From Gammaproteobacteria bacterium (lineage in GTDB: Bacteria > Pseudomonadota > Gammaproteobacteria > DSM-19610): a stretch of DNA of 40,716 bases. A program made the position numbers and the translations under genes. Positions 18,276-38,056 of the stretch are shown here, in pieces (the stretch's first letter is position 1; each line of letters opens with the position of its first letter). The stretch spans positions 1 to 40,716 of the forward strand of contig DRNU01000095.1 in the NCBI GenBank assembly GCA_011374975.1, read 5' to 3'. The notes beneath the pieces were generated by a model. It was given only the letters and a program-made list of their open reading frames with translations, searched no databases and was not told the DNA's origin.

Positions 18276-18331
18276 TCCCATATATAAGATTATATGTAGA
18301 ATATGGAAATTATTATTCTATATATGGAAAT
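18276..18331. promoter_or_regulatory. AT-rich repeat region in the yceI / LysR divergent promoter
   Basis: An inverted repeat TTCCATATATA (18276-18286) and TATATATGGAA (18319-18329) matches perfectly over 11 bp. Within it, ATATGGAAAT occurs twice in the same direction (18301-18310 and 18322-18331), 21 bp apart, or two helical turns. The region is strikingly AT-rich compared with both sides. It is well placed to be the binding site of the LysR regulator acting on both genes (inference); the second repeat also supplies the ribosome-binding GGAA of the regulator gene. Confidence 0.5.
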
Positions 18332-18335
18332 ATTC

Positions 18336-19244
18336 ATGCCTCTTGATCTGAATGCCATGGCCTTGTTCGTGAAGGTGGTTGAGCACAAGAGCTTTTCCGC
18401 GGCTTCCCGGCACCTCAGTGTTCCGATTTCCACGGTAAGTCGCAAAGTGAGTGAGCTGGAAAAGGCCCTGGGTGTCCGTTTGCTGGAACGCTCCACCCGC
18501 CGGCTGCGATTGACTGAACTGGGGCAGGATTATTACGCTTACTGCCGGCGCGGGCTGGAGGAAATTGAAACCGGGACACTGATGCTGAATGAACGTCAGG
18601 CGGAAATTTCGGGCATCCTGCGCCTGTCGGTACCGCCCGGTCTGTCTGACCGGTTGATTGTTCCCCTGGTCAGCGCATTCCAGGCCGTCTATCCGGCCGT
18701 GACGATAAGGATTCTGATTACCGAACGGCATGTTGATTTTATCCAGGATGCTGTCGACCTTGCGCTGCGCGTTGGTGAACTTGAAGACAGCAGCCTGGTG
18801 GCCCGGCCGCTTATCCGTTACCGGCATGTGCTGGTCAGTACGCCCGGCTACCTGGAGGCCTCCGGCACACCCGTTCATCCCCGTGACCTGCAAGCGCATC
18901 GCATGATTACGTTTGGCGGCTGGTTTGACAACGTGTCGCTGAAACTGATGAACAACGGCAGCGTACACACCATGCATGTCAAAGGGGTGTTGGCGTTGAA
19001 CGATTATGCCGGCATTCTGTGTGCGATCGAGGCCGGACAGGGTATTGCCGAAATTCCGTCTATCATTTGCGGCGAAGCCTTGCGTAGCGGCAGGCTGGTT
19101 GAGGTTATGCCGGACTGGCGCCTCCCGCCCACGATCCTGTCGGCTGTTTATCCGTGCAACCGTAACCTTTCGCGAATCGTCCGGCTATTTAAGGATTTCT
19201 GCGTTGAGCATGTGGATGCCCTGTCCCCCCATGCAGATATTTAG
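18336..19244 (+). CDS. LysR-family transcriptional regulator
   Basis: 302 aa from the ATG at 18336; an upstream ATG at 18303 adds eleven residues unlike the family. The N-terminal winged helix spans 4-64 (LNAMALFVKVVEHKSFSAAS, then VSRKVSELEKALGVRLLERS). The effector domain occupies about 92-295 (GILRLSVPPGLSDRLIVPLV, and LNDYAGILCAIEAGQGIAEI). The AlsR/DhcR-like subgroup is suggested by the short linker, but the ligand cannot be deduced. It is divergent from yceI and 118 bp upstream of phosphoketolase, so either could be its target. Confidence 0.92.
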   Translation: MPLDLNAMALFVKVVEHKSFSAASRHLSVPISTVSRKVSELEKALGVRLLERSTRRLRLTELGQDYYAYCRRGLEEIETGTLMLNERQAEISGILRLSVPPGLSDRLIVPLVSAFQAVYPAVTIRILITERHVDFIQDAVDLALRVGELEDSSLVARPLIRYRHVLVSTPGYLEASGTPVHPRDLQAHRMITFGGWFDNVSLKLMNNGSVHTMHVKGVLALNDYAGILCAIEAGQGIAEIPSIICGEALRSGRLVEVMPDWRLPPTILSAVYPCNRNLSRIVRLFKDFCVEHVDALSPHADI

Positions 19245-19314: not shown

Positions 19315-19362
19315 CGGATGGGGCTGGGTCACAAGGATTCTAAAATATCGGAGGATTTTGTC

Positions 19363-21756
19363 ATGTCTGTAGCTGCATCAGCGCTGGAAACCCTTGAAAA
19401 ACCCCTGTCCCCGGAAGTGCTCGCGAAAGTCGATGCCTACTGGCGGGCCTGCAACTACCTTGCAGCGGGGATGATCTACCTGCAGGAAAATCCCCTGCTG
19501 AGGGAGCCGCTCAAGCCCGAGCACATCAAGAACCGCCTGCTGGGCCACTGGGGTGCGAGCCCGGGTCTCTCTTTCATGTATACCCACCTGAACCGCCTGA
19601 TTGTCAAAGAAGACCTGAACGCTATTTTCCTGGCGGGTCCGGGTCACGGTGCACCCGGGGTGCTGGCGCCGGTCTACCTGGAAGGCACCTATTCCGAGAT
19701 CTACCCGGAAAAGAGTGAAGACGAGGAGGGCATGCAGCACTTCTTCCGACAGTTTTCGTTCCCCGGCGGTATTGGCAGCCACTGTACCCCGGAAACCCCG
19801 GGATCGATCCACGAGGGCGGTGAGCTGGGTTACAGCGTGTCGCACGCGTTCGGTGCCGCCTTCGATAACCCCGACCTGCTGGTGGCCGTCGCGGTCGGTG
19901 ACGGCGAGGCGGAAACCGGTCCGCTGGCCACGTCCTGGCACTCCAGCAAGTTCCTGAACCCGATCCGCGACGGTGCGGTGCTGCCGATCCTGCATCTGAA
20001 TGGTTACAAGATCAATAACCCGACTATCCTGTCACGTATCCCGCACCAGGAGCTGGAAGACCTGTTCCGCGGCTATGGCTGGAATCCCTGTTTCGTCGAG
20101 GGTGACGACCCGATGATCCTGCACCAGACCATGGCCGCGACCATGGACCGCTGCCTGGCCGAGATCCGTTCTATCCAGGGGCAGGCGCGCGAAAGCGGCC
20201 AGGCGACACGTGCACGCTGGCCGATGATCGTGTTACGCACACCCAAGGGCTGGACCGGCCCCAAAGAGGTCGATGGCAAGCGGGTTGAAGGTTTCTGGCG
20301 CGCGCACCAGGTGCCGTTATCGGGTGTGCAGGATAATCCACAGCATCTGCAGATGCTGGAAGACTGGTTCAAGAGTTACAAACCGGGCGAACTGTTTGAT
20401 GAGAAAGGCAAGCTGTTGCCGGAACTGCGGGCGCTGGCACCGGTCGGCGAACGGCGCATGAGTGCTAACCCGCACGCCAACGGCGGCCTGTTGCGCAAAG
20501 CCCTGCGCATGCCGGACTTCCGGGACTATGCCGCGGAGGTCACCGAGCCTGCGCGTATCAAGGTGGCGAATACACCGCCGCTAGGCGAGTTCCTGCGCGA
20601 TATCATGCGCAAGAACATGGATAACTTCCGCGTCTTCGGGCCGGATGAAAATACCTCCAACAAGCTGAATGCAATCTACGAGGTGAGCAAAAAGCTGTGG
20701 CTGTCCGAGTACCTGCCGGAAGACGCGGACGGGGGTGAACTGGCGCCCGACGGCCGGGTGCTGGAAATGCTGTCCGAGCATACCCTGGAGGGCTGGCTGG
20801 AGGGCTATTTGCTCAGCGGACGGCACGGTTTCTTTGCCACCTATGAAGCGTTCGTGCACGTTATTGATTCCATGTATAACCAGCACGCCAAATGGCTGGC
20901 GATTTGCGAAGAGATCCCCTGGCGGGCGCCGGTTTCTTCCCTCAATCTGCTGATCACCTCCACGGTATGGCGCCAGGACCACAACGGTTTTACCCACCAG
21001 GATCCCGGTTTTCTCGATGTGGTGGTCAACAAGAACCCGCATGTGACGCGCATCTACCTGCCGCCGGACGTGAACACCCTGTTGTCCGTGGCTGACCATT
21101 GCCTGCGCAGCCGGGACGACATCAATGTCATCGTCGCCGACAAGCAGATGCACCTGCAATACCTGGATATGGACGCGGCGATCAGACACTGCACCAAGGG
21201 CATCGATATCTGGGGCTGGGCCAGTAACGACCAGGGCTGCGAGCCGGACGTGGTGATGGTGGGCTGCGGTGATATCCCGACCCAGGAGGCGCTGGCCGCC
21301 ACCGCCATGCTGCGCGAGCACTTCGAGGACCTGAAAATCCGTTTTATCAATGTCGTCGACCTGTTCCGCATGCAGTCGGCCGGTGAACACCCGCACGGCC
21401 TGTCGGACCGCGACTTCGACAGCCTGTTCACCGTGGACAAGCCGATTATTTTCAATTTCCACGGCTATCCCTGGCTGATTCACCGCCTGGCCTACCGCCG
21501 CACCAACCAGAAGAACCTGCATGTGCGCGGCTATAAGGAGAAGGGCAATATCAACACACCGCTGGAACTGGCCATTGAAAACGAAATCGACCGTTTCAGC
21601 CTGGCCATCGATGTTATCGACCGCGTGCCGCGCCTGCAGGTGGCGGGTGCCCACGTGAAGGAAAAATTGCGTGACATGCAGATCGAATGCCGTAACTATG
21701 CGCATGAGCACGGTGTGGATAACCCCGAGGTTCGCGACTGGACCTGGCCTTACTGA
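19363..21756 (+). CDS. xfp: Xylulose-5-phosphate / fructose-6-phosphate phosphoketolase
   Basis: 797 aa from the ATG at 19363, which has GGAGG 8 bp upstream; the frame is open to 19318 without a ribosome site. Family landmarks are all present: [11 protein letters not shown] (61-71), GPGHGAP (92-98), [19 protein letters not shown] (140-158), the thiamine-diphosphate motif [16 protein letters not shown] (179-194) and [10 protein letters not shown] (211-220). It splits xylulose-5-phosphate (or fructose-6-phosphate) with phosphate into acetyl-phosphate and glyceraldehyde-3-phosphate (or erythrose-4-phosphate). Whether it accepts both sugars cannot be told. The glycogen phosphorylase gene follows by 32 bp and pta-ackA, which use acetyl-phosphate, converge from the other side. 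Confidence 0.97.
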
Positions 21757-21788: not shown

Positions 21789-24371
<2,583 letters not shown>

Positions 24372-24374
<3 letters not shown>

Positions 24375-24396
24375 CGGAAGATCACGGTTATCCGCT
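24372..24396. terminator. Possible weak bidirectional stem-loop between convergent genes
   Basis: TAGCGGA (24372-24378) can pair with TCCGCTG (24390-24397 region) across a 12-base loop, using one G-U pair. It spans the glgP stop and lies just before the stop of the minus-strand gene at 24398. There is no T-tract on either strand, and only 23 bp separate the two genes. Low confidence. Confidence 0.25.
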
Positions 24397-24397
24397 G

Positions 24398-25408
24398 CTA
24401 CAGGAAATCCCGTTTTGGCAGCAGATCGTCACGCGGGAACCTGGTAATCGACAGGATGCGTTTCAGGTTTTTGCCAAGCGACGCTTCACTCAGTTCCAGG
24501 GTGTTGCCGGTGGCGGACGACAGTCCGTCCAGTTTGATGTTCATGCCGCTCAGGCACATGGAGATACGGTTCAGTCTGAGGTGTGCCTGCGGGTCTCCCA
24601 GCACATCTGCGATGCGGTCGATATAGTCATCCAGGGTTGTGAGCCGGGCGTGGGCCTGTTCGAGCGCCTGGCCGGTGTGTGCCGCCTGTTCGCGCAGGTC
24701 CTCTATATCGATATTCCCGCTACCCCTGGGGGGGGCAAGACTCTGGCTTCTCAGGTGTGCGATTTTGAGCTGCATTCCCAGCAGGTGGTTTTGCTCTTCC
24801 AGCGAGTCCCGCGCAGCGACCAGTTCTGTGATCCGTTCCAGGGCATAACTTATCAGAACATCAAAAGCCCGTTGTTCAAGGTTTTTCCGGAGTTCTTCTT
24901 CACTTGCTGAAGGCTTGACGACCCAGTGGTCGGTAAAGCTTACGCTGATTTGTTTGATATCCCGTTTAAGCACCTCTCCGCGCATTTCCATGCCCAGCGT
25001 TGTGCGTTCGTTGCGTTCCATGCTCAGCAGTGCGTAACAGAGGCCGGCGTCAGGGCGCCGGTCAAAAAAGTCACGCACCTCCTTGTTATGGCTGAATATA
25101 CGGCGTAAATCCCCGGCTGTGGAGAAGAACGCCTTGACCATCGGGTCTTTGCCCCAGGACTTGCTGCTGGCTTCAATGCTCTCCGGTATACGGTCAACCA
25201 GGTCGGAACAATAGGTGAGGGTGCGTTCCACGCAGGGCCTGAGTTTTTTCCGGTAGCCACCCAGTGCCCGGATGCGGGGATCGACTTCATCGACCACGTG
25301 TTCGATGGCTTCCTGCAGTTCACGCTCCCTGGCTTGCTCTGTCGCCTTGATACGCCTGCGTTGGCGGCGTTTTTCCCTGAATGCGAAGACGAGTTGTTGC
25401 AGGCCCAT
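24398..25408 (-). CDS. Unknown coiled-coil protein co-transcribed with pta-ackA
   Basis: 336 aa from the ATG at 25406-25408; a TTG at 25417 is possible but its ribosome site (GGAG) would be too close. Not recognised. The N-terminus has a very basic stretch (11-30; REKRRQRRRIKATEQARERE). Residues 31-165 are mixed helical with conserved-looking WGKDPMVKAFFSTAGDLRRIF and FFDRRPDAGLCYALLSMERN. A coiled coil runs about 172-222 and again 236-262. The end (MCLSGMNIKLDGLSSATG, GKNLKRILSITRFPRDDL) is neutral. No signal peptide or membrane segment, so cytoplasmic. The gene starts 5 bp beyond the ackA stop, which suggests a role with the acetyl-phosphate enzymes or shared regulation. Confidence 0.75.
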   Translation of the reverse strand: MGLQQLVFAFREKRRQRRRIKATEQARERELQEAIEHVVDEVDPRIRALGGYRKKLRPCVERTLTYCSDLVDRIPESIEASSKSWGKDPMVKAFFSTAGDLRRIFSHNKEVRDFFDRRPDAGLCYALLSMERNERTTLGMEMRGEVLKRDIKQISVSFTDHWVVKPSASEEELRKNLEQRAFDVLISYALERITELVAARDSLEEQNHLLGMQLKIAHLRSQSLAPPRGSGNIDIEDLREQAAHTGQALEQAHARLTTLDDYIDRIADVLGDPQAHLRLNRISMCLSGMNIKLDGLSSATGNTLELSEASLGKNLKRILSITRFPRDDLLPKRDFL

Positions 25409-25413
25409 GCCGG

Positions 25414-26625
25414 TCAATGCTCCGTGTTGCGGATGCAGCCAACGGTTTGCAGGGCGATTTCAAGTTCTTCATTGGTTGGTATAACCAGCAGACTGACCGG
25501 GGAGGCTGCATCGTGTATGTCAAAGGCCTCATTGCCGGTCGAGGCGTTTTTCTGCGCATCGAGCGTAATCCCCAGTGTCTCCAGCCCGCTGCAGCATTGA
25601 GCGCGCATCCAGATGTCATTCTCGCCAATACCCCCGGTAAACACCACGGCATCCAGCCGGCCCAGCACGGCGTAATAGGCGCCGATGTACTTCTTGATGC
25701 GGTAGCAATACATGTCCAGTGCGAGCCGGGCCTGCGCATCGCCGGCATCGGCCAGGCGGTGTACTTCGCGCATGTCGTTGGCGCCACAGATACCTTTAAG
25801 GCCGCTCTCCTTGTTGAGCATTGATTCGATCGCATCGTTGTCCATACCCGTGGTGCGGCCCAGGTAGAAATGGATGGCCGGGTCCAGGTCCCCGCAGCGG
25901 GTACCCATGATCAGCCCCTCCAGGGGTGTCATGCCCATCGAGGTATCCACGCTTCGCCCCTGGGCAATGGCCGCCGCACTGGCGCCATTGCCCAGGTGCA
26001 GTGTTACCAGGTTGAGCGACGCCAGCGGCTTGCCAAGCAGGATGGCGGCCTGTTTTGCCACGTAAGCGTGTGATGTGCCGTGAAAGCCGTAGCGGCGTAT
26101 GCGCTGTTCGGTATAGAGCCGGTCGGGCAGGGCATAGCGCCAGGCATGCGGGGGCAGGGACTGGTGAAAGGCGGTATCGAATACGGCAACCTGCGGGATA
26201 TCCGGCGCCTGTTGCAGGGCGACCTCGATACCCATGACGTTGGCGGGATTGTGCAGCGGGGCGAGCGGTATCATGTCCCGGACCTGTTGCAGCACGGCGG
26301 CATTGATCAGCGTGGGCTCCCGGAAGGATTCGCCGCCGTGTACCACACGATGGCCGATGGCAAACAGTTCTGACAATTCTGTGACTGCCCCGGATTCGCG
26401 CAGCAGGGTTCCGATGCATGACAGTCCCTCGCGGTGATCGGCAACAGCTTGTTCGTGTCGGCTTTCAGTGATGCCACTGTCACTGTGTACCCGGTGACGG
26501 TGCAGGCTTTGCGCCTCGCCGATACGCTCGACGGCGCCGGACGCGAGTACTGTCCCGCCATCCATGTTGAACAGCTGATATTTGATGGAGGAGCTGCCCG
26601 AGTTGATCACCAGTACCTTGATCAC
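25414..26625 (-). CDS. ackA: Acetate kinase
   Basis: 403 aa. The GTG start at 26623-26625 overlaps the pta stop by 4 bp (GTGA), a translational-coupling arrangement. Family motifs in order: VINSGSSSIKYQLF (6-19), GHRVVHGGESF, VAVFDTAFHQSLPPHAWRYA, RYGFHGTSHAYVAKQA, VTLHLGNGASAAAIAQGRS, GMTPLEGLIMGTRCGDLDPA and VFTGGIGEND near the end. It makes ATP and acetate from acetyl-phosphate and ADP, or the reverse. With phosphoketolase opposite, it would give the ATP-yielding last step of the phosphoketolase route. Confidence 0.97.
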   Translation of the reverse strand: MIKVLVINSGSSSIKYQLFNMDGGTVLASGAVERIGEAQSLHRHRVHSDSGITESRHEQAVADHREGLSCIGTLLRESGAVTELSELFAIGHRVVHGGESFREPTLINAAVLQQVRDMIPLAPLHNPANVMGIEVALQQAPDIPQVAVFDTAFHQSLPPHAWRYALPDRLYTEQRIRRYGFHGTSHAYVAKQAAILLGKPLASLNLVTLHLGNGASAAAIAQGRSVDTSMGMTPLEGLIMGTRCGDLDPAIHFYLGRTTGMDNDAIESMLNKESGLKGICGANDMREVHRLADAGDAQARLALDMYCYRIKKYIGAYYAVLGRLDAVVFTGGIGENDIWMRAQCCSGLETLGITLDAQKNASTGNEAFDIHDAASPVSLLVIPTNEELEIALQTVGCIRNTEH

Positions 26626-28715
26626 GGCGCGTCTCCCGCTTGCGCCTGGACAGCGGTAATCACCACCGTGTTGACGATGTCAGTGACCGTGCAGCCGCGG
26701 CTGAGGTCATTGACCGGTTTGTTCAGGCCCTGCAGAACCGGCCCGATGGCTATCGCATCCGCCGAACGCTGCACGGCCTTGTAGGTATTGTTGCCGGTGT
26801 TGAGGTCGGGGAAGATAAACACCGTCGCATTACCGGCAACCGGGCTTTCGGGCAGCTTGGTGCTGGCGACGCCGGCATCGATTGCGGCATCGTATTGTAT
26901 CGGCCCTTCGATCATGACATCAGGTCGCAGCTCCCTGGCGAGCTGCGTGGCTTCGCGTACCTTGTCCACCGCCGCGCCCTTGCCCGATGCGCCGGTGGAA
27001 TAGGACAGCATGGCAACGCGTGGCTCGACGCCGAACTGGTGTGCGGTGTCAGCCGAACTGACGGCGATGTCAGCCAGCTGCCGGGCGTCGGGGTCCGGGT
27101 TTACCGCACAGTCGCCATACACCAGTACCCGGTCCTCCAGACACATGAAAAACACGCTGGAGACGATAGCGGTTCCGGGCCGGGTCTTGATGATTTCGAA
27201 GGCCGGGCGAATGGTGTGCTGCGTGGTGTGTACCGCGCCCGAAACCATGCCGTCAGCCTGTCCATGGTGCACCATCATGGTCCCGAAATAACTGACGTCG
27301 GCCATCGTATCGAAGGCCATCTCGCGTGAAATGCCCTTGTGCTGGCGCAGGGTGTAATAGGTGTCGGCATAGCGTTCACGCAGTTCCGAGTTCAGCGGGT
27401 CGATAATATCGACCCCGTCCAGGTGCAGGCCCAGGGCCTGGATCTTTTGCTGTATTTCGGCGCTGTCACCCAGCAGGGTAAGCCTGACCACACCGCGCAG
27501 TGTCAGTATCTCGGCCGCGCGCAGAATACGTTCCTCGCTGCCTTCGGGTAACACGATGTGCTGAATGTTCTTCCTGGCCCGTTGCGCCAGTTCGTACTCG
27601 AACATCAGCGGCGTCACGCGGGTGTCGCGTTCGCTGGCAAGCATCCGCTCGAGTTCCGGCAACGCAATGTGCGCCTCCACCAGGCCGAGCGCCGCCGCAA
27701 TTTTGTGTTCGTTCTCCGCTGTCAGTGTGCTGCTGACACGGTTCACCTGCATCGCCGTGGTAAAGGTGTCGCCGTCCGTGCCCAGCACGGCAAACGGCGG
27801 TTTGCCCAGCCCGGCAAGCAGTTTTACCAGCTGGGGGGCGGGCTGGAGGCCGCCGCTGAGCAGCAGCCCGGATATCTGTGGACAGGCGGTGGACGGGTAG
27901 GCCATCAGGCAGGCGAGGATAATATCGGCGCGGTCGCCCGGGGTTATCACCAGGCCGCCGGCTTCCAGGTGGTCGAGAAAATCCGGTACCTGCATCGCCG
28001 CCACGGTGTAGTGGGTGATTTCCCGGTTCAGGTTGTCGGTGTCGCCATAGATTACCCGGGCGCCGAGACTGCGTGTGATATCGCCGACAGTGGGCCTGGA
28101 CAGTGCCGGCTCCTCGGGTACCAGGTAAACCGGCGCCGTGCCCGGCGTGTGTGCGAACTGTGTTTTCAGCTCGTCGAACTGCGAGCGGGCCACACCGTTG
28201 ATGACTGTCGCGAGAACATCGCAGTTACGTTCCTGCACGGATTTAAGGAAGCCGGCGGTGGCATCCCGGATTTCCGCGTTACTGCGCCCGATACCGCGCA
28301 CCACGGGCATGATGAGGCAGCCCAGATTGTTGGCGACATCGGTATTGAAGTCGAACTCCAGGGTGGCGTAGGCGTGGGAGTAGTCGGTGCCCACACACAG
28401 CACGCGGTCGTATTTTTCCTGCAGGCGCCGGTATTTTCCCAGGATCTGTTTCAGTAGTTCGTCGTAGCGGTCTTCCGCGATCAGCCGGCGCGCGACATCA
28501 CTGCTGCACCCGTACAGGTCTTCATAGGGTGAATCGATACGGTAGCGTTGTGTGATCAGGTGTATGAGCTGGTCGTGCTGTTCGTCGCTGCGCGTGACCG
28601 GCCTGAAAATACCGGCCTTCCCGGTGTTCCCGGAGAAGTATTCCATCATCGCCAGTACGATGACGGATTTGCCGCTGCCCTGTTCCGCGCCGGTTACATA
28701 GAGGTCTTGTGCCAT
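26622..28715 (-). CDS. pta: Phosphate acetyltransferase, long form with BioD-like and DRTGG domains
   Basis: 697 aa from the ATG at 28713-28715; a frame open to 28742 adds nine residues. Domains: an N-terminal P-loop, BioD-like domain (about 1-200; LYVTGAEQGSGKSVIVLAMM), a DRTGG regulatory domain (about 215-330; GDTDNLNREITHYTVAAM, and VITPGDRADIILACL), and the catalytic domain (about 370-690; NIQHIVLPEGSEERILRAAE, and MLSYSTGASGKGAAVDKVRE). It interconverts acetyl-CoA plus phosphate and acetyl-phosphate plus CoA. The long form is allosterically regulated in enteric bacteria. First gene of pta-ackA-unknown; divergent from cardiolipin synthase. Confidence 0.97.
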   Translation of the reverse strand: MAQDLYVTGAEQGSGKSVIVLAMMEYFSGNTGKAGIFRPVTRSDEQHDQLIHLITQRYRIDSPYEDLYGCSSDVARRLIAEDRYDELLKQILGKYRRLQEKYDRVLCVGTDYSHAYATLEFDFNTDVANNLGCLIMPVVRGIGRSNAEIRDATAGFLKSVQERNCDVLATVINGVARSQFDELKTQFAHTPGTAPVYLVPEEPALSRPTVGDITRSLGARVIYGDTDNLNREITHYTVAAMQVPDFLDHLEAGGLVITPGDRADIILACLMAYPSTACPQISGLLLSGGLQPAPQLVKLLAGLGKPPFAVLGTDGDTFTTAMQVNRVSSTLTAENEHKIAAALGLVEAHIALPELERMLASERDTRVTPLMFEYELAQRARKNIQHIVLPEGSEERILRAAEILTLRGVVRLTLLGDSAEIQQKIQALGLHLDGVDIIDPLNSELRERYADTYYTLRQHKGISREMAFDTMADVSYFGTMMVHHGQADGMVSGAVHTTQHTIRPAFEIIKTRPGTAIVSSVFFMCLEDRVLVYGDCAVNPDPDARQLADIAVSSADTAHQFGVEPRVAMLSYSTGASGKGAAVDKVREATQLARELRPDVMIEGPIQYDAAIDAGVASTKLPESPVAGNATVFIFPDLNTGNNTYKAVQRSADAIAIGPVLQGLNKPVNDLSRGCTVTDIVNTVVITAVQAQAGDAP

Positions 28716-28834
28716 AAGCCTGATACGCCAGTAGTTCGGCAAAACTATAGCAAGTCTTCCGCAAATATGCTCTCCGGGCCTGTGCGTTCCGTGGCATGTT
28801 ATTCTCGTATCTCCGGGTAAAGTGCAGGCGCACC

Positions 28835-30280
28835 ATGGGCGACGAATTCATTTCATCCTGGCCAACGCTGTATTATGTCAGTGAATGGCTGGTAAGACTG
28901 GTCATGCTGGTCATTGTGATTGGACGCCCCCCGCCGCGCGCGGCGATGAGCTGGTTGCTGGTGATCTTCTTCCTGCCCTGGCCGGGGCTGTTGTTATACC
29001 TGTTTATCGGCGAGAACCACCTGCCGCGCCGGCGGCTGACAAAGCGCAAGGCGCTGCTGGCCGGGCTGGAGGACATGCGCAGGCGCTACATGCCCCGCGG
29101 GCAGGATGTCTCGTCAATGGTGGGCCGTGAATTTCTGCCGACGGTCACGCTGGCCGAGCGACTGGGTTATATGCCCATTATGTCCGGTAACCAGGCAACG
29201 CTGCTGACCGATACGGATACGGTGATTGACCGGCTGGTCGGGGATATCGATGCCGCACGGCACCATGTGCATATCCTGGTCTATATATTTGCGGTAGACA
29301 GGACGGGGGAGCGCATCGTGGCCGCGCTCGAACGTGCAGCCGCGCGTGGCATCGAGTGCCGGCTGCTGGCCGATGCGCAAGGTTCCCGGAAATTCCTGAA
29401 AAAGATGTTACGGCGGCTGGCTGGTGCGGGTATCGAGGTATACCCGGCATTGCCTGTCAGTTTGCTGCGCGCCTGGGTTGCGCGCATCGACTTGCGTAAC
29501 CACCGCAAGATCTTTGTCATCGACGGGCAGATCGCCTATACCGGGTCACAGAATATCGTCGATGCCGGCTACGGACACCGGCATTTGCGCTGGCATGACC
29601 TGATGGTGCGTTTGACCGGCCCGGTCGTGCTCGAATTGCAGGCGGTATTTGCCGGCGACTGGTTCGCGGAAAGCGATGAACTGCTGGACGGACCCGGCAT
29701 ATTCCCGGACGGCACCACAGCAGCGGAAGGGGGTGTTGCGGTTCAGACCCTGCCCAGTGGCCCGTTGTTTCCCGCCGAAAACTACCAGCGCCTGACTGTC
29801 GCTGCACTGTATGCCACGCGCCGCAAGGTTACCATTACCACGCCCTATTTTGTGCCGGATGAAGTCTTCCTGGAGGCCATGGAAACCGTGGCCCTGCGCG
29901 GGGTTGTGGTCGAGCTGATTGTTCCGTTGCAATCCGACCAGATACTGGTAGCCAATGCCGCCAGGGGCTATTACGATCGGTTGTTGAACAGCGGTATCAG
30001 GATTTACCTGTTTAACAGGGGGCTGGTGCACGCAAAGAGCATAACAGTCGATGATTCACTGGCTTTCCTGGGGTCCAGTAACTTCGATATTCGCTCGTTT
30101 GCGCTCAATTTCGAAATCAATATGATTGTATACGATGCAGGGTTTGCCGCAACATTGCGCCAGCAGCAGGACTGGTATCGGGCGCATTCCCGCCAGCTCA
30201 CGCTGGCGCAGTGGCAACAGCGCCCTCGTTACCAGAGGATCCTGCAGAACATTATAAAGTTGTTGAGCCCATTGCTCTAA
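28835..30280 (+). CDS. cls: Cardiolipin synthase (phospholipase D family)
   Basis: 481 aa from the ATG at 28835, the usual length; an ATG at 28796 adds 13 residues without a ribosome site. Two N-terminal membrane helices (about 12-33 and 36-58; VRLVMLVIVIGR, AMSWLLVIFFLPWPGLLLYLFIGE) are followed by two phospholipase D domains. Each has a complete HKD motif: H223-x-K225-x4-D230 (NHRKIFVIDG) and H399-x-K401-x4-D406 (VHAKSITVDD), both followed by the GS-x-N element. It condenses phosphatidyl donors to cardiolipin at the inner membrane. It stands alone, divergent from pta and convergent with the Bat operon. Confidence 0.95.
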   Translation: MGDEFISSWPTLYYVSEWLVRLVMLVIVIGRPPPRAAMSWLLVIFFLPWPGLLLYLFIGENHLPRRRLTKRKALLAGLEDMRRRYMPRGQDVSSMVGREFLPTVTLAERLGYMPIMSGNQATLLTDTDTVIDRLVGDIDAARHHVHILVYIFAVDRTGERIVAALERAAARGIECRLLADAQGSRKFLKKMLRRLAGAGIEVYPALPVSLLRAWVARIDLRNHRKIFVIDGQIAYTGSQNIVDAGYGHRHLRWHDLMVRLTGPVVLELQAVFAGDWFAESDELLDGPGIFPDGTTAAEGGVAVQTLPSGPLFPAENYQRLTVAALYATRRKVTITTPYFVPDEVFLEAMETVALRGVVVELIVPLQSDQILVANAARGYYDRLLNSGIRIYLFNRGLVHAKSITVDDSLAFLGSSNFDIRSFALNFEINMIVYDAGFAATLRQQQDWYRAHSRQLTLAQWQQRPRYQRILQNIIKLLSPLL

Positions 30281-30396: not shown

Positions 30397-32280
30397 TCAG
30401 GAGTGTTGCGGGTAAAGGGGATTGAGCCTGTCATCCTGACCGGCTTTGGCAGCTTTTTTTTCCGGTATACCATGCCTGAATTTATCCCACAGTGTCGCGC
30501 CGTTCCAGTCGCCGGCGTCGGCGGCATAGAGGCTGCGGTCCAGCGCTCTGAGCAGTGACTGTCCGCTTTCAATGCGCGCCGCCAGGGCCTCAAGGCTACG
30601 TGGCGGCGCGTCCGGCCAGTGCGCCTGGCCGAGGTCCAGCAGGGCTTTGGCAGCAGCATGAGGGTCATTGGCCGTACAGGACTTTTCCAGGGCCCGCAGG
30701 GCGGTCTTCCGGTTCGGGGCGGCGGCGTGACGCGGGATGGATGGCGTTTGTTCGGCCGCGTCCGTTGCATTTGTCTGGCGGCGCTGTTTCGTGCGCCGTG
30801 CCAGCCGTACAGCCAGCATGGCAAGCAACAGGCCGCTGCCGACGGCCGGCCAGAACCGGTATTCCCTGATGACACCGAACGGTTCATGTTCCGCTTCTGT
30901 TTGCTGTGCCTCATTCACAGGCGAGGCCGGCTGTGCAGCCGGTTCCGGTTGGCGGGGGGATGCCGGCGCTTCGCTTGCGCTGCCGGCGGCACCGGGCAAT
31001 ACTTTGAACTGCCAGGCGGGCAGGGTGGTGCTGGCAGCCCTGTCGTGACGGGTGTCCCACCAGTTGAGGGTGATGGCCGGCACGTCCAGCGTACCCTGTG
31101 TATCCGGGATGTAGGTCAGTGTCTGGCTGCGGACACCGTAAATGGTTTTGCCGTCAGTGCGACTTTCCTGTTCCGGCGCTTCCGGGTACACGCGGGCATT
31201 GGCCGGTGCGGGGATGGCGAGTTCGGGGATCTGTGAACCGGACAGGCCTTTGGTCTGAATGGTAATGGTGCGTTCGACCGGTTCGCCGGCCCTGAACTGT
31301 GGCGGGTTCCTGGTCCAGCTGTCGCCCAGTGTTACCGCTTCGGCCGGTAGCCAGTCGCGGGCGGCTGTTGCCGGCCGGGGTTTGACATCGATAGTAACCG
31401 CCTGACTGCGGGCAGCCACCGGCTTGCTTGCATGGCCACCGAACAGGGGGCTGTTGAACAGGTTGTCGCGGAAAAAGGGATCGTTGGCAAACGGGCTGTT
31501 GCCAAGGAACTCTTCCATCAGGCTGCCGGGCCGACTGCTGCGCCCGCGCTGCTGCGGCAGCGTGATGCGGCCCCGGAAAGTGGCGGGTGGAATATGCAGG
31601 GCGCCACTTTTCTCCGCTGAAATAACGTAGTGGCGCTCGATAACATTGTAGGACTGACCGTTGCGCACAGTGCTGTAGTTTTTATCTTCCCCAAGCTGTT
31701 CGACCACGGCGTCTTCCGGTTCGGGCGCACTGAGTTCGCCCTCCTGCACGCGGTCATCGTAATACAGGCGCACGGTGTAGGGGATCTGTTGTTGCACATA
31801 GGCCTGCTTGCCGGTTGAACTGACCTCGGCCTCGATGAACACATGCCGGCCGGGCTGTGCCGTCGTCTGCTGTGGTGCCTCGGTGATGTCCAGTTCCAGC
31901 GCTGCGGTCTGTTCCCCGCCGACGCTGAGCGGCGGGATACGCAACCGGCCTGTGTGGTGCGGCTGGAGTTGCACCTGCCACAGGGTTTTGTCGGAGCGGC
32001 GACCGTTGATGATACTGACCTGGGTGCTGGTACTGGTGCCCAGTATGTCGAAGTCTTTTTCCAGGGGCGCAAGGTCCGGCTGTTGCCCGGATTGCAGGCC
32101 GTCGCTCTCGATAGTCAGGGTCAGGGTGTCACCCGCGTAGACCGTGTCACGGTCGAGCGTGGCGCGTACCGCCGCTGCACCCGGGCCGGCCGCCAGCATC
32201 AGCAGCAGTGCCAGCAGGGAAGCCGGCCACAGCGCCGGGTTGTTGAGCCTGTGCATTGAAGTGTATGTGGCGGATTTCAT
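30397..32280 (-). CDS. batD: BatD-like membrane protein
   Basis: 627 aa from the ATG at 32278-32280, with GGAG 9 bp upstream; a long in-frame extension to 32412 overlaps the preceding gene and is dismissed. A signal peptide (about 14-36; ALLLMLAAGPGAAA) leads a BatD/oxygen-tolerance domain of beta-rich repeats (RATLDRDTVYAGDTLTLTIE, and TVRLYYDDRVQEGELSAPEP; about 38-430). A Pro/Ala-rich linker and one membrane helix (about 475-495; FWPAVGSGLLLAMLAVRLAR) follow, then a cytoplasmic tail. It is the last gene of the moxR-bat operon, 20 bp after the vWA-TPR gene. Bat proteins act with MoxR ATPases in the periplasm or membrane; the exact substrate is unknown. Confidence 0.88.
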   Translation of the reverse strand: MKSATYTSMHRLNNPALWPASLLALLLMLAAGPGAAAVRATLDRDTVYAGDTLTLTIESDGLQSGQQPDLAPLEKDFDILGTSTSTQVSIINGRRSDKTLWQVQLQPHHTGRLRIPPLSVGGEQTAALELDITEAPQQTTAQPGRHVFIEAEVSSTGKQAYVQQQIPYTVRLYYDDRVQEGELSAPEPEDAVVEQLGEDKNYSTVRNGQSYNVIERHYVISAEKSGALHIPPATFRGRITLPQQRGRSSRPGSLMEEFLGNSPFANDPFFRDNLFNSPLFGGHASKPVAARSQAVTIDVKPRPATAARDWLPAEAVTLGDSWTRNPPQFRAGEPVERTITIQTKGLSGSQIPELAIPAPANARVYPEAPEQESRTDGKTIYGVRSQTLTYIPDTQGTLDVPAITLNWWDTRHDRAASTTLPAWQFKVLPGAAGSASEAPASPRQPEPAAQPASPVNEAQQTEAEHEPFGVIREYRFWPAVGSGLLLAMLAVRLARRTKQRRQTNATDAAEQTPSIPRHAAAPNRKTALRALEKSCTANDPHAAAKALLDLGQAHWPDAPPRSLEALAARIESGQSLLRALDRSLYAADAGDWNGATLWDKFRHGIPEKKAAKAGQDDRLNPLYPQHS

Positions 32281-32300
32281 TTCACGTTCTCCATTGCCGA

Positions 32301-34163
32301 TTACCAGGGCTGCCGGCTGCCGGTGCCCTCGCGTTGTGCCCGTTGTTGATACTGGTACAGGAACTTGCGCCGCAGCAGGCCGCCGGGATCGTCCGGTATG
32401 CGTCGCAGCCATTGTTCGGCTGCCATCTGCTCCTCGCTGCTGAGCGATTCTGCCTGCGCCGGCGGGCCATCGGTTTGCGGTTGCTGTTCGGCCTGTGTCT
32501 TGCCGCTGTTCCGGTCGCGGTTTTTATCCTGCTGTTGCCCGGCCTGTTGTTCCGCGGCGGAGTGTTCTCCGGCGTTTTGCTTTTCCAGCGCCTTCGCCGC
32601 ATCGGCAAACTGGTTTTTACCGGCGTCACCCTTGTTTTGCGGTGTTTTATCCTGCTGGCCCTGTTCGCCTTGCTGGCTTTGCTGAGCCAGGCTGTTCTGC
32701 TGTCCTTGCTTGCTTTGCTGGGCCGGCTTGTTCTGCTGTCCCTGCTCGCCTTGTTGAGCCTGTTTGTCCTGTGCCTGATCCTTTTCCTGCTGTTTTTGCC
32801 GGCGCAGTAGTGCCTCGACCGCCGCCTTATTGGCCAGGGCATCTTCCATGCCGGGCGCCGCTTGCAGGGCACTGTCATAGGCGCTGATGGCTTCCTCGTA
32901 GCGACCGAGTCTGGCCAGTGCGTTGCCGCGGTTGTATTCGGCTGTGGCCCCCTCGGCCCGGGAAAAATCTTCCAGCGCCTGCGGGTAATTACCGCGCCGG
33001 TACTCGGCACTGCCTCGCAGCAGGGGATCTTCCGCCACCCGGCTGGCGCGCTCATAGTCCTTTTCCGACAGGGCTTTTGCCGCTTGCTGATCGGGGCGCT
33101 GCCAGAGGTCCTGCCAGCCGGCGGCCATGGCCTGCTGCGGTGGTGACACGACACCGACCAGGAATACCAGGCTCAGCAGCCAGCCGCGGCGGAAAGCCAG
33201 TGCCGCCAGCGGCAGCAGCAATACTGCCAGCCAGGGGCCGCGCTGTTTCCAGTGCTGCCCCTGCATTTCCTGGCTGACCAGCTCCCCGCTACGCAGTGGC
33301 ACGCTGTTGTCCAGCAGGGCATCGATATCGCTGTCGTTGCCGGTGAAGGTCCGGTAGTCACCGCCGCCGGCTTCTGCCACGGCCTGCAGCGCGGTGCTTT
33401 CAAGCTGCGGCACGATGAGTTTGCCGTCAGTGGTGCGCAGTAACTGGCCCTGCGCGTTGGTCAGCGGTTCGGCTTTCTCAGTGCCGACGCCGAGTACCGA
33501 TACCCGGTAACCCTGTTGACGTAATTCGGCGGCAGCCTTGCGTGCCCGGTTCCCGCTCACGCCATCGGCCAGCAGCAGGATGTGACCGTCGCGCAGACCC
33601 GCCTGCCGCAACAGTTCGCCGGCCTTCTCCAGGCCCAGGTCGGCACGGCTGCCCTGTACCGGCATGAGGCCGGGATCGAGCGCCTTGAGCAGGGCGCGAA
33701 TGGTATCCACGTCACGGGTCAGCGGTGTCACGGTAAAGGCATCACCGGCAAACACCACCAGCCCGGTCTGTCCTTCCTCGTTGCGGGCGAGAATGTCCTC
33801 GATTTTGAAACGTGCCCGCACCAGCCGCGAGGGCTTCAGGTCCCGGTCGAGCATGGAACGCGACAGGTCCAGCACGATGACGCGTGCCGCGCTGGTCTGG
33901 TAAAGCGGTTGCGGCTGTTTCTCCCACACCGGGTTGGCCAGCGCCAGGGCGGCGAGCAACCAGCCGAGCCCGAGCAGCCATAACAGGCTGCGGCCGGCCC
34001 TGTGCGCCTTGCCCACCAGCAACAGGGGCTGCAGGCGGGCATCGATAATGCGGGTCCAGGGATTGTCACCGGCGGCGGACTGCCGCAGGCGCCAGACCAG
34101 CAGGGCAAGCGGGATCAGGCTGAGCAGCCACAGCGGCTGGAGAAAATGAAATTGCTCAGGCAT
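32301..34163 (-). CDS. vWA-TPR protein, BatB/BatC fusion type
   Basis: 620 aa. The ATG at 34161-34163 overlaps the batA stop by 8 bp. Membrane helices at 7-26 and 58-77 precede a von Willebrand A domain (about 92-290) with MIDAS motif DLSRS (D99, S101, S103) and ADGVSGN. Two more helices (310-325, 328-345) follow, then TPR repeats (about 360-445; NRGNALARLGRYEEAISAYD). A Gln/Lys-rich low-complexity tract (455-565) precedes a conserved end (EEQMAAEQWLRRIPDDPGGL, RRKFLYQY). In other bacteria BatB (vWA) and BatC (TPR) are separate; here they are one protein. The metal site is intact, so it should bind partners in a metal-dependent way with BatA and MoxR. Confidence 0.92.
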   Translation of the reverse strand: MPEQFHFLQPLWLLSLIPLALLVWRLRQSAAGDNPWTRIIDARLQPLLLVGKAHRAGRSLLWLLGLGWLLAALALANPVWEKQPQPLYQTSAARVIVLDLSRSMLDRDLKPSRLVRARFKIEDILARNEEGQTGLVVFAGDAFTVTPLTRDVDTIRALLKALDPGLMPVQGSRADLGLEKAGELLRQAGLRDGHILLLADGVSGNRARKAAAELRQQGYRVSVLGVGTEKAEPLTNAQGQLLRTTDGKLIVPQLESTALQAVAEAGGGDYRTFTGNDSDIDALLDNSVPLRSGELVSQEMQGQHWKQRGPWLAVLLLPLAALAFRRGWLLSLVFLVGVVSPPQQAMAAGWQDLWQRPDQQAAKALSEKDYERASRVAEDPLLRGSAEYRRGNYPQALEDFSRAEGATAEYNRGNALARLGRYEEAISAYDSALQAAPGMEDALANKAAVEALLRRQKQQEKDQAQDKQAQQGEQGQQNKPAQQSKQGQQNSLAQQSQQGEQGQQDKTPQNKGDAGKNQFADAAKALEKQNAGEHSAAEQQAGQQQDKNRDRNSGKTQAEQQPQTDGPPAQAESLSSEEQMAAEQWLRRIPDDPGGLLRRKFLYQYQQRAQREGTGSRQPW

Positions 34164-35169
34164 GTCGCGCCTCCACACGGCCAGGTGCCGCCCGCCGGCC
34201 AAAGGCCGCGGACAGGGCAATCAGCACACTGAGTAACAGGGCAGCGCCCAGTGGCCAGAAATAGAGTTCCTCCACCGGCCGCCAGGTCTGTTCATCTCCG
34301 GATACCGGTTCAATGCGATCCAGCAGGGCGTAGATTTTCGCCAGTTCGGCGGTATCGCGGGCACGGAAATAACGGCCCTCCGTCTTGTCGGCGATGGCCT
34401 TGAGGGTGGCCTCGTCGAGATCGCCGGTTGCTACCCGGCGTACACCGAAGGGCGTGCGCACCTGTGTTTCGCCACTGCCGATACCGATGGTGTAGATGCG
34501 CACACCCTCACGCGCGGCGAGGTCGGCAGCCTTGAGTGGATCGACGTTACCGGCGGTGTTGGCGCCGTCGGTGAGCAATATCAGTACCCGGTTGCGGTCC
34601 GGTTCCTTGCGCAGGCGCTTGATCGCCAGGCCGATGGCATCGCCGATAGCGGTGCGCTTGCCGGCCAGGCCGATCTGCGCTTCATCCAGCAGGGTGTGCA
34701 CGGTGTTGCGGTCAAAGGTCAGCGGCGCCTGCAGGTAGGCCTGGTCGCCAAACAGGATAAGGCCGAGGCGGTCGCCCTTGCGTTGTTCGATAAATTCGCC
34801 GGCCACCAGTTTGACAGCGGAGAGGCGGCTGAGCTGACGGCCGTTGATCTGCATGTCCTCGTTCTGCATGGAGCCGGAAATATCCACTGCCAGCATCAGG
34901 CTGCGGCCGCTGACCGGCAGGTGAACGGTCTCGCCGATCAGCTGCGGGCGTGACGCCGCCAGCACCAGTAACAGCCAGGCCAGTACCGCCAGAGTCAGCC
35001 GCAGCCTTGAGCGCCGGCCGGTATGGCTTTGCAGGCTGGCCTGTAGCGCGTCATAGAAGGGGAAGCGCAGTGCGGACGGGTTCGCATCGGCCGCACGCGG
35101 CAGTAACAGGGCCAGCAGTGGCAGGGGCAGGGCGGCAAACAGCCAGGGCCAGGCAAATTCAATCGTCAT
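34156..35169 (-). CDS. batA: vWA-domain membrane protein, BatA type
   Basis: 337 aa. Helices at about 7-25 and 56-73, a von Willebrand A domain (about 90-285) and a C-terminal helix (about 308-330; EELYFWPLGAALLLSVLIAL) give the typical BatA topology. The MIDAS motif DISGS (D96, S98, S100) is followed by ILLTDGANTAGNV with its conserved Asp and Thr. It overlaps the DUF4381 gene by 11 bp and the vWA-TPR gene by 8 bp, so translation is coupled. BatA is thought to bind partner proteins for the MoxR chaperone-like ATPase at the inner membrane. Confidence 0.93.
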   Translation of the reverse strand: MTIEFAWPWLFAALPLPLLALLLPRAADANPSALRFPFYDALQASLQSHTGRRSRLRLTLAVLAWLLLVLAASRPQLIGETVHLPVSGRSLMLAVDISGSMQNEDMQINGRQLSRLSAVKLVAGEFIEQRKGDRLGLILFGDQAYLQAPLTFDRNTVHTLLDEAQIGLAGKRTAIGDAIGLAIKRLRKEPDRNRVLILLTDGANTAGNVDPLKAADLAAREGVRIYTIGIGSGETQVRTPFGVRRVATGDLDEATLKAIADKTEGRYFRARDTAELAKIYALLDRIEPVSGDEQTWRPVEELYFWPLGAALLLSVLIALSAAFGRRAAPGRVEARHA

Positions 35170-35650
35170 GGCGGCGTTCCGTGTTCTTTTTTACCCAGTC
35201 GCGCACCAGGTCACCCAGCGCCCGGGTATCCAGGTCGGCGGGCAAGGCGGGTTGATAGGGGCCATTGGCCAGTACCTGCCCGGAGCCATGGCTGAAACGT
35301 CCCTCGCCACCGGACTCATCAAGGAAACCCAGCCAGTCGTTGCCGGTGAGGGCGGCGACCCGTTGGCGGGGGTAGTGCATCAGTGCCAGGCGGCGCAGCA
35401 GGATGGAGATCTGTGCGATTTTCTCCGGTGTCGTGTCGGTGTCCTGTTCCAGTGCATCGAGCATGGCGAGGATGCGTTGGCGCTGGCGCCGCAGACGGTA
35501 ACGACGCGTGGCGACCCAGGCCGCCCAGGCCAGCAGTACAAGCAACAGCGCGGCGAGGATCCACCAGCCCGGGGCCGGCGGCCAGAAGCCGGGTTCGGCC
35601 GGCAGGTGGATGTCGCGCAATTGCAGTGCTGGCCGGGCGGCAGGGGTCAT
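35159..35650 (-). CDS. DUF4381 membrane protein
   Basis: 163 aa. An N-terminal periplasmic segment (LRDIHLPAEPGFWPPAPGWW) leads one membrane helix (about 30-48; ILAALLLVLLAWAAWVA). A cytoplasmic helical domain with RRYRLRRQRQRILAMLDALE and LLRRLALMHYPRQRVAALTG follows. This is the DUF4381 plan, found in moxR-vWA operons between DUF58 and BatA. It overlaps both neighbours: by 4 bp (ATGA) with DUF58 and by 11 bp with batA. Function unknown, presumably structural within the complex. Confidence 0.9.
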   Translation of the reverse strand: MTPAARPALQLRDIHLPAEPGFWPPAPGWWILAALLLVLLAWAAWVATRRYRLRRQRQRILAMLDALEQDTDTTPEKIAQISILLRRLALMHYPRQRVAALTGNDWLGFLDESGGEGRFSHGSGQVLANGPYQPALPADLDTRALGDLVRDWVKKNTERRHDD

Positions 35651-36684
35651 GCTGCCACCTCCTCTGCCATAGTGATCGGTGTCGGGGCCAGGCCGCGCCG
35701 CAGCGTGCCGGCGACGTCATCCCCGGTGGACAGTTGCAACAGCGGGATGGCCCGGCTGCGCATGAGATCCTGCACCTGTTTGTGGTGCAGGCTGAAAAAA
35801 TCGCTGTAGGCTTTCCGTGCCGCCGCCGAACCGGTGTTGAGAATGCCCTGCTGCCGGCCGTCGCTGACGGCGTAACGCGCCGGGGGCGGTGGGGCAAGTT
35901 CCAGGGCGTCGACGATCTGGATGGCGACCACGTCGTTGTGCCGGCGCAGCCGCATCAGGTGGTTACCGCTCTCGTCATCGATGCCGTAAAAATCACTCAG
36001 CAAAAAGATCAGGCTGCCGGGCCGGCTGACCCGCCGCAACCGCGCCAGCGCGCCATTGAGGCCCTGCGGGTGGGGCGGGTGTTTGAGGTTCTCCAGCGGG
36101 TCGCTCTGCGCCACCAGCTGACGGATCAGGCGTAGCACGCCGTGCTTGCCGCCGCGTGGCGGCAGTTCATGGTGATCGCCGTTGAACAACAGGGCACCGA
36201 TGCGGTCACCGTGGGCGGCCGCGGCCCAGCCGATCAGGCCGGCGGCGCGCGCGGCGATCACGGATTTGAGTGCACCCCGGCTGGCGAAGAACATGCCGGG
36301 GTTAAGATCCACGCACACCACCACCGGGCGTTCACGTTCTTCCTGGTAGAGTTTGGTATGCGGCCGGCCGGTGCGGGCGGTGACCCGCCAGTCCATGCTA
36401 CGGATGTCATCGCCGGGCTGGTAGATGCGCGATTCCTGGTAGTCCATGCCGCGACCGCGAAAGCGTGAGGCATGGCTGCCGGACAGTTGCGACCGCGCCG
36501 CCTGTTTGCGCACCAGGTCGAACTTGCGGGCCTGCTGGCGCAGGGCGATGAGTTCGTCGATGCTGACCTGGGTGGCCGGGTTGAGCGCCGGGTTGCCACT
36601 GTCGTCAGCCAGCCCGGCCGTCCGGTCGGCAGACCGGTGACGGCGTTTTTTCAGGCCGGCGAGGATGGTGTTGGCGAGTTTCAT
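35647..36684 (-). CDS. DUF58 domain protein
   Basis: 345 aa from the ATG at 36682-36684, one base after the moxR stop; a TTG at 36693 is in frame but less likely. The hallmark segment is YQESRIYQPGDDIRSMDWRV followed by TARTGRPHTKLYQEERERPV (about 82-122), then a vWA-like Rossmann part with VVVCVDLNPGM. The MIDAS motif is degraded (DLNPG in place of DxSxS), which is usual for DUF58. It is a conserved partner of MoxR ATPases. No membrane segments, so it is cytoplasmic. It ends with a 4-bp overlap on the DUF4381 gene. Confidence 0.93.
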   Translation of the reverse strand: MKLANTILAGLKKRRHRSADRTAGLADDSGNPALNPATQVSIDELIALRQQARKFDLVRKQAARSQLSGSHASRFRGRGMDYQESRIYQPGDDIRSMDWRVTARTGRPHTKLYQEERERPVVVCVDLNPGMFFASRGALKSVIAARAAGLIGWAAAAHGDRIGALLFNGDHHELPPRGGKHGVLRLIRQLVAQSDPLENLKHPPHPQGLNGALARLRRVSRPGSLIFLLSDFYGIDDESGNHLMRLRRHNDVVAIQIVDALELAPPPPARYAVSDGRQQGILNTGSAAARKAYSDFFSLHHKQVQDLMRSRAIPLLQLSTGDDVAGTLRRGLAPTPITMAEEVAA

Positions 36685-36685
36685 G

Positions 36686-37696
<1,011 letters not shown>

Positions 37697-38056
37697 GTTT
37701 GAATGACTCCTGTGAGTGTATTCGGTGTGCCGGGTGCTGCGTTTACCCGGCCGGTTTTTCGCTTGCGGCATTGATGACGATGCTGTGGTGAACCAGGCCT
37801 GCCGGGATATCCGTCAGCGCCGGGTAACCTGTTCGGTTTTTTTCCGGCAAGTAATGTGAGGGTGGATTCGATTTTTTCAAGTGCCGCCGTGACCGGCGGA
37901 TCGACAAAGTGGCGACCGATTTTCCTGTGCTGGTACGCATGTGGCTGTCCTCGCGTCGTTGCAACCCGGCGTCGGGTTTCCCGGAGCGGCCGCGCTTCAA
38001 TGCCGGCCTGGATGCAACAGTACGTGGTCCGGGTTTAACAGGAGGTGGAGGGAAGA
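37697..38056 (-). other. moxR leader region
   Basis: 360 bp between the sensor-kinase stop and the moxR start. It holds a response-regulator-type repeat at its upstream end (38053-38072), a small hairpin AACCCG-GCGT-CGGGTT (37963-37978), a T7 run (37837-37843), and the AGGAG of moxR. A 65-codon frame (separate entry) and an overlapping 113-codon frame without any ATG, GTG or TTG (38034-37693) both run through it. No certain gene. Confidence 0.5.
37743..37940 (-). CDS. Doubtful 65-residue protein in the moxR leader
   Basis: An ATG at 37938-37940 with GAGGA 7 bp upstream opens 65 codons ending 47 bp before moxR; the frame extends further upstream to 38000. The product is very basic at its N-terminus (LSIRRSRRHLKKS) and not recognised. 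The last third (GYPALTDIPAGLVHHSIVIN) looks more protein-like than the middle, where the next frame reads more plausibly (FVDPPVTAALEKIESTLTLL). Either a small unknown gene, a decayed one with a frameshift near the T7 run, or no gene. Confidence 0.25.
   Translation of the reverse strand: MRTSTGKSVATLSIRRSRRHLKKSNPPSHYLPEKNRTGYPALTDIPAGLVHHSIVINAASEKPAG

Follow-up and report, generated by a model that had tools for sequence, protein, structure and literature searches.

What does a gene with no recognisable relative among the acetate enzymes do as the third gene of a pta-ackA run? The question is posed by gene X in the window, by which we mean the whole stretch of 40,716 nucleotides analysed here (contig DRNU01000095.1 of the gammaproteobacterial assembly GCA_011374975.1). 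A sequence-only reading of the window had proposed X as a basic coiled-coil protein, scaffolding, nucleic-acid-associated or regulatory, and as a new component of the node formed by the acetyl-phosphate enzymes and phosphoketolase. We followed this up through the gene itself, its family, its predicted fold and its neighbours in other genomes.

A third gene behind pta and ackA

Gene X (24398–25408, minus strand) encodes 336 residues in a complete open reading frame, from the ATG at 25408 to the stop at 24398–24400, and homologues were found. The acetate kinase gene ackA (25414–26625, minus; Pfam PF00871, E 3e-145) ends at 25414, and the measured gap to X is indeed the 5 bp first read. Upstream lies pta for phosphate acetyltransferase (ORF limits 26622–28742, minus; PF01515, E 1.2e-134), overlapping ackA by 4 bp; its true start may be the ATG at about 28715. 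A GGAG at 25420–25423 (minus), inside the end of ackA and 11 nt before the ATG, is the likely ribosome-binding site of X; translation could also begin, with lower likelihood, at the in-frame TTG at 25417.

A simple pattern search of 24200–29200, compared with shuffles, gave one promoter-like site (shuffles 1.8) and seven terminator-like sites (shuffles 4.3, s.d. 2.3). On the minus strand the scan gave one of each, the promoter-like site within X itself and the terminator-like site within pta, and found neither kind between ackA and X. Together with the gene spacing, from which co-transcription is read, this makes a single pta-ackA-X transcript plausible. Four other genomes of the genus keep X at 55–64% identity over 327–336 residues, and this conservation and the many diverged homologues indicate that the ORF is more than chance.

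On the opposite strand the convergent glycogen phosphorylase gene (21789–24374, plus; PF00343) ends 23 bp short of X, and the phosphoketolase gene xfp (19318–21756, plus; Pfam XFP_N, XFP and XFP_C) precedes it. Phosphoketolase had been counted as part of the setting of X, a link that proves weak across the family, since Xfp lies within 8 kb of X homologues at 4 of 111 loci. Directly upstream of xfp and the glycogen phosphorylase gene, Pfam marks a LysR-type regulator (18303–19244), a candidate regulator of that node. On the other side a PLD-like gene of cardiolipin-synthase type (28796–30280, Pfam) diverges from pta, followed at 30397–37771 (minus) by BatD, two VWA proteins, DUF58 and a MoxR-type ATPase (Pfam), an arrangement resembling a Bat operon.

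Family searches and distribution

The window protein had four Pfam matches only (E 0.098–0.39), none usable, one PHROGs match (E 0.075), no usable match in NCBIfam and none in PADLOC. Among 80 members, Pfam gave scattered weak matches, mostly to coiled coils in the best 25 of 102 families listed, and NCBIfam gave weak matches to 13 families. Searched against the PDB, the family profile met mainly coiled-coil chains, best a seryl-tRNA synthetase (E 0.0034) limited to profile positions 185–255, and Pfam places no catalytic domain of that enzyme in the window protein. A CHAD domain is likewise absent by Pfam.

The first judgement that X resembles no known acetate-metabolism enzyme stands: searches of Pfam, NCBIfam, PADLOC and PDB sequences did not give it a name, nor did Foldseek. 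A literature search, mainly of freely accessible papers, found no description of X or its gene cluster. By these searches X belongs to an undescribed protein family. A structural or regulatory role appears likelier than an enzymatic one because no catalytic motif was recognised.

Whole-genome surveys covered the relatives, the class and the phylum of the window organism. With its own genome counted each time, 17 of 144 relatives carry a homologue, as do 22 of 369 class genomes and 5 of 398 phylum genomes. All these five belong to the window's class, and in one (G566) the coiled-coil part alone matches. Genome contigs supplied 80 named loci (80 of 90 relatives kept), including some from Competibacteraceae, Chromatiaceae, Thiobacillus, Dechloromonas and Thiogranum. 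By their titles they come from Proteobacteria or subgroups, except for two loci of one metagenome-assembled genome titled Phycisphaerales.

Eleven plasmid records of Cupriavidus, Paraburkholderia, Caballeronia and Eleftheria carry a member. Phage records held no family match, and IMG/VR no relative of L041, the one member searched there. A defence or phage origin of X was set aside on the absence of a PADLOC match and of any phage record, with only the PHROGs match at the E value above.

Several gene models needed care. In genome G053 the member is split over two ORFs (L046, 6869–7477 and 7774–8124) and the gene looks broken. An apparent FabI-X fusion in L134 and L135 was rejected because all-frame translation shows the FabI stretch of the long ORF to be in the wrong frame. 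The extra N-terminal part of L043 was not taken as a fusion because a run of N separates it from the family part.

For over-long ORFs (L086, L091, L166 and L172, for example) the profile-matched part alone entered the counts over 111 loci, and an earlier neighbour comparison still used them whole. Neighbour comparisons leave out L047, where no homologue was called, and 12 unnamed loci that duplicate the protein of a named one exactly; the 111-locus counts also leave out L046.

Predicted fold

The AlphaFold2 model of X, built with 80 sequences, has a pLDDT of 95.3 and a pTM of 0.86. It starts with a helix at residues 3–42 and a helical part to 117, followed by a long beta hairpin at 123–167 (24908–25042, minus). 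The C-terminal part has helices 170–222 and 235–255, further helices, and strands 277–286, 302–311 and 315–325. The long coiled coil expected from the sequence appears here as a coiled-coil hairpin at 170–255 (24644–24901, minus), whose helices would pack antiparallel, judging by its matches to known hairpins.

Residues D40, R47, L56, F95, G139 and F158 are invariant in the 80 sequences, and E36, G41, T42, D43, R45, Y52, E134, R149, D150 and Q153 are among the near-invariant ones. The beta hairpin thereby holds conserved E134, G139, R149, D150, Q153 and F158.

Foldseek with the whole model reached E 0.049 at best in the PDB and 0.020 among viral models, with no match that names X. VIA matches lie mainly in residues 176–274. 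The best is the seryl-tRNA synthetase arm, a hairpin of similar length (Z 8.3, rmsd 3.6, 76 aligned); PspA resembles X in the hairpin only (Z 7.5, rmsd 4.0, 82 aligned). Both are confined to residues 182–274, and hairpin matches of this kind are common for coiled-coil hairpins.

The helix/beta body has no relative among the matches listed. Residues 1–170 folded alone (pLDDT 89.8, pTM 0.60) gave a best Foldseek E of 0.79 and a best VIA Z of 3.6 (rmsd 3.3, 60 aligned). A missing fold relative does not prove a new fold. The divergent members L045 (8659–9597), L102 (6826–7713) and L043 lack profile positions about 210–256 in the middle of the hairpin, which could thus be an extra element or one that members can do without.

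N-terminal helix

The strongly basic N-terminus first read in X is real in the window protein, with a net charge of +6 over residues 1–30, and is limited to the window's clade. There six members carry +4 to +10 over the first 30 residues; in the remaining 102 rows the mean is +0.5, and only 3 reach +4 or more. The proposal of a nucleic-acid-associated protein rests on this basic start, a feature that does not carry over to the family at large.

Residues 1–42 of X (25283–25408, minus) form by model, charge and moment an N-terminal helix with a hydrophobic start and then a polybasic stretch. This region is the place of a short hydrophobic motif in many other members. A motif of the LFQSIF type, defined after the sequences were seen and with start codons picked by a simple rule, falls in the first 12 residues in 68 of 108 rows; in the rest of these proteins 0.15% of windows contain it. 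The window protein itself does not satisfy the strict motif.

The mean N-terminal hydrophobic moment is 0.47 against 0.31 in shuffled sequences, with p ≤ 0.05 in 44 of the 108 rows (of 110) that this test covers. Membrane-targeting amphipathic helices are known in MreB and MinD, and the N-terminal motif of the family may resemble them. As the basic feature is clade-specific and a hydrophobic motif takes its place elsewhere, the polybasic stretch is a local variant, in the window's clade, of what may be an anchor.

Neighbours in distant relatives

AckA lies within 8 kb of the family member at 14 of 111 loci, Pta at 11 and PPK2 at 23, with some loci not reaching 8 kb in both directions. At 13 of the 111 loci PPK2 comes within 500 nt, on the same strand in all 13 and upstream in 12. 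The density of PPK2 falls from 12 per 100 kb in this nearest bin to between 0 and 1.2 in the other four.

On a quickly built tree of 120 rows, which leaves many forks unsettled and omits L043, L045, L046 and L102, AckA or Pta within 6 kb marks 19 rows and takes at least 12 changes, gain and loss not being distinguishable. PPK2 marks 22 of the 120 and needs 12 changes. A first tree had left out L043 and L046.

The 19 rows fall in distant clades. Four of the six members of the window's own clade belong to them, namely the window, L027, L028 and L026, the last counted by hand since its AckA is only a piece at a contig end. Competibacteraceae contribute L119, L121, L132, L134, L135 and L137, and Burkholderiales L216, L218, L219, L220 and L221. 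The others are L110, from a paralogous subfamily in the window's genus, and L091, L156 and L122, where AckA and Pta are on the strand opposite to X and PPK2 is on the strand of X. Plasmid neighbourhoods, taken at 12 of 13 places from 11 of 12 records, have AckA or Pta within 6 kb in 5 of the 12.

The Burkholderiales runs read ppk2-(sulP)-DUF3141-pta-ackA-fabI-X. The deposited annotation of Caballeronia grimmiae gives ppk2, phosphate acetyltransferase, acetate/propionate kinase, fabI and X as a hypothetical protein, and BLAST found DUF3141 in an unannotated gap. Eleftheria terrae is annotated with DUF3141, pta, ackA, fabI, an RNA-binding protein and X. In Caballeronia zhejiangensis, sulP is inserted between ppk2 and DUF3141.

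Thus the proposed tie to the acetyl-phosphate enzymes holds in part. It recurs in distant clades, and 101 of the 120 rows have AckA and Pta beyond 6 kb or absent, so the objection raised in advance, that homologues might live mostly in unrelated neighbourhoods, applies to some extent. From its recurrence, the AckA/Pta neighbourhood of X does not look like an accident of one genome.

Within the window's genus X occurs in 10 of 17 genomes and ackA in 15. X adjoins ackA in 5 of these 15: the window, G006, G007 and G016 with orthologues, and G013, where the gene is a paralogue of 34% identity. In 11 ackA regions of the other 10 genomes, a survey that excludes one partial ackA (G008:C44), no family member appeared among 870 ORFs of at least 40 residues. 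Three of these regions (L200, L201 and L202) have pta-ackA intact without X. Since 10 of the 15 genomes with ackA have no X beside it, X is an optional partner, not needed for the acetate pathway.

Two genus genomes have different X subfamilies behind ackA, as if a slot had been refilled, and related small proteins downstream of X (L026, 6064–6411; L040, 9088–9399) that look membrane-type by eye.

An upstream gene was called at 116 of 123 loci. Taken without selection, the immediate upstream gene is MdoG at 14 of the 116, PPK2 at 11, a FabI-type reductase at 8 and AckA at 6. RapA, a DAO oxidoreductase, Ppx and a histidine phosphatase also occur next to X or often near it. In a group of loci mostly from Competibacteraceae (L125, L126, L133, L149, L155, L182 and others), MdoG and X form a block that has Endonuclease V, HisG and Ndk close by. 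Two proteins with no Pfam match recur within 500 nt of X, relatives of a 149-residue one (L041, 8598–9047) at 9 of 111 loci and of a 97-residue one (L078, 8427–8720) at 7.

At the level of whole genomes, PPK2 is present in 21 of the 22 class genomes with X and in 193 of the 347 without it (Fisher p 8.6e-5, kinship ignored). The X, PPK2 and PhaC_N draws of 369 genomes were taken here as the same set, their handles agreeing where shown.

Discussion

We tentatively favour X as a peripheral-membrane coiled-coil adaptor for the ATP-regenerating enzymes of acetyl-phosphate and polyphosphate metabolism and a recurrent accessory gene of their clusters, at a probability well below even. X would be cytosolic and peripheral to the inner membrane through its N-terminal helix, held by the short hydrophobic motif in many members and by the hydrophobic and polybasic helix in the window's clade. 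Its body and hairpin would serve as the adaptor for phosphotransferases, AckA/Pta here and PPK2 elsewhere. It would thereby keep these enzymes near the membrane or transporters when energy is short.

The clusters concerned are those of pta-ackA, fabI, DUF3141, ppk2 and sulP. Judged by gene order, the same-strand linkage to ackA/pta or ppk2 is recurrent in distant clades. Because linkage to the same energy genes recurs in distant relatives, X is a candidate overlooked partner of the acetate and polyphosphate energy genes. A more specific version, in which X sets up a membrane-tethered 'phosphagen' station, with a single adaptor family recruiting AckA/Pta or PPK2 by lineage at the inner membrane under energy starvation, is very unlikely. 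Beyond the family, the predicted fold and the linkage, all of the role proposed for X is what we infer.

What speaks most strongly for the adaptor is the link to ATP-regenerating phosphotransfer genes; the strongest competing fact is the envelope neighbours, MdoG foremost. X could accordingly be an envelope or osmotic-stress protein acting on the membrane like PspA, the energy clusters sharing only the same stress expression. MdoG is the commonest immediate upstream neighbour, MscS and SulP genes lie near some members, as does a cation-antiporter-like gene named by eye in L081 and L213, the N-termini are amphipathic, and PspA and VIPP1/IM30 chains are among the hairpin matches (Z 7.5 and 7.3). 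The MdoG link, however, is one tree group of 38 rows, mostly Competibacteraceae, whereas the PPK2 and AckA/Pta links are spread. Moreover, most fold matches listed span the hairpin alone. PF04012 (PspA/IM30) is touched by 2 of the 80 members (best E 0.034) and is absent from the four Pfam families that the window protein matches at E ≤ 1. We regard this explanation as somewhat unlikely; both types of neighbour would fit an X sitting on the membrane.

The two other functional alternatives fare less well. Competibacter and Chromatiaceae, both known storers, are among the hosts, and X might be a phasin-like protein on the surface of polyphosphate or PHA granules. Its neighbours include PPK2, Ppx with a CHAD gene (L038), and DUF3141, for which two papers describe a connection with PHA depolymerase or synthase (PMC8050969, PMC8601165). 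PhaC_N at E 1e-10, however, was found neither in the window's genome (88.8% complete) nor in G016 (99%), and it occurs in 7 of 22 class genomes with X and 64 of 347 without (p 0.16, kinship ignored), so PHA is not required for X. For polyphosphate, the basic stretch is clade-specific. A granule role as the general one was disfavoured after this survey and is distinctly unlikely. Highly unlikely is a nucleic-acid-binding regulator of the operon, suggested by the polybasic N-terminal helix of the window's clade and by very weak matches to SMC/Rad50 coiled coils. Those matches are such as any coiled coil gives, Pfam finds no DNA-binding domain in the window protein, and most of the family lacks the basic stretch; DNA binding was disfavoured on the charge comparison. 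Finally, X may be an accessory gene unrelated in function to its neighbours, with a few old operons inherited and shuffled. The neighbourhoods are very varied, the family is patchy in its class, and some copies are on plasmid records, but the same few genes are linked to it repeatedly in distant clades with a bias of strand and order, and this account too is distinctly unlikely.

The adaptor reading sets X apart from the systems it most resembles. The window has both genes of the pta-ackA operon, overlapping, with X at 5 bp, and differs in adding a third gene of an undescribed family; the E. coli ackA-pta operon is not known to have such a gene. In the DUF3141-pta-ackA-fabI clusters of Burkholderiales and Competibacteraceae, some with ppk2 and sulP, X is at or near the end of the run in the same orientation. 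The window differs in having xfp and glycogen phosphorylase opposite, and ppk2, fabI, sulP and DUF3141 were not found near its pta-ackA.

Phasins and other storage-granule proteins resemble X only in how they might work, by an amphipathic start, a coiled coil and storage genes nearby. Unlike them, the window protein matches no phasin model in Pfam or NCBIfam, and PHA synthase was not found in its genome. Among the members, phasins appear neither in the 25 Pfam families listed of 102 nor in the 13 NCBIfam families. The low-oxygen-activated (lxa) locus of Burkholderia may be a further lead, since it carries phbB and a phosphate acetyl/butyryl transferase along with universal stress proteins (PMC6127331, PMC3759415).

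Both pta-ackA and ppk2 are textbook energy genes, and an unnamed family travelling with them would point to an unrecognised layer, of placement or control, in bacterial ATP regeneration from acetyl-phosphate and polyphosphate. This layer would concern sulfur oxidisers, purple sulfur bacteria, wastewater bacteria and Burkholderiales, and X, with its confident predicted structure, is a concrete candidate on which it can be tested.
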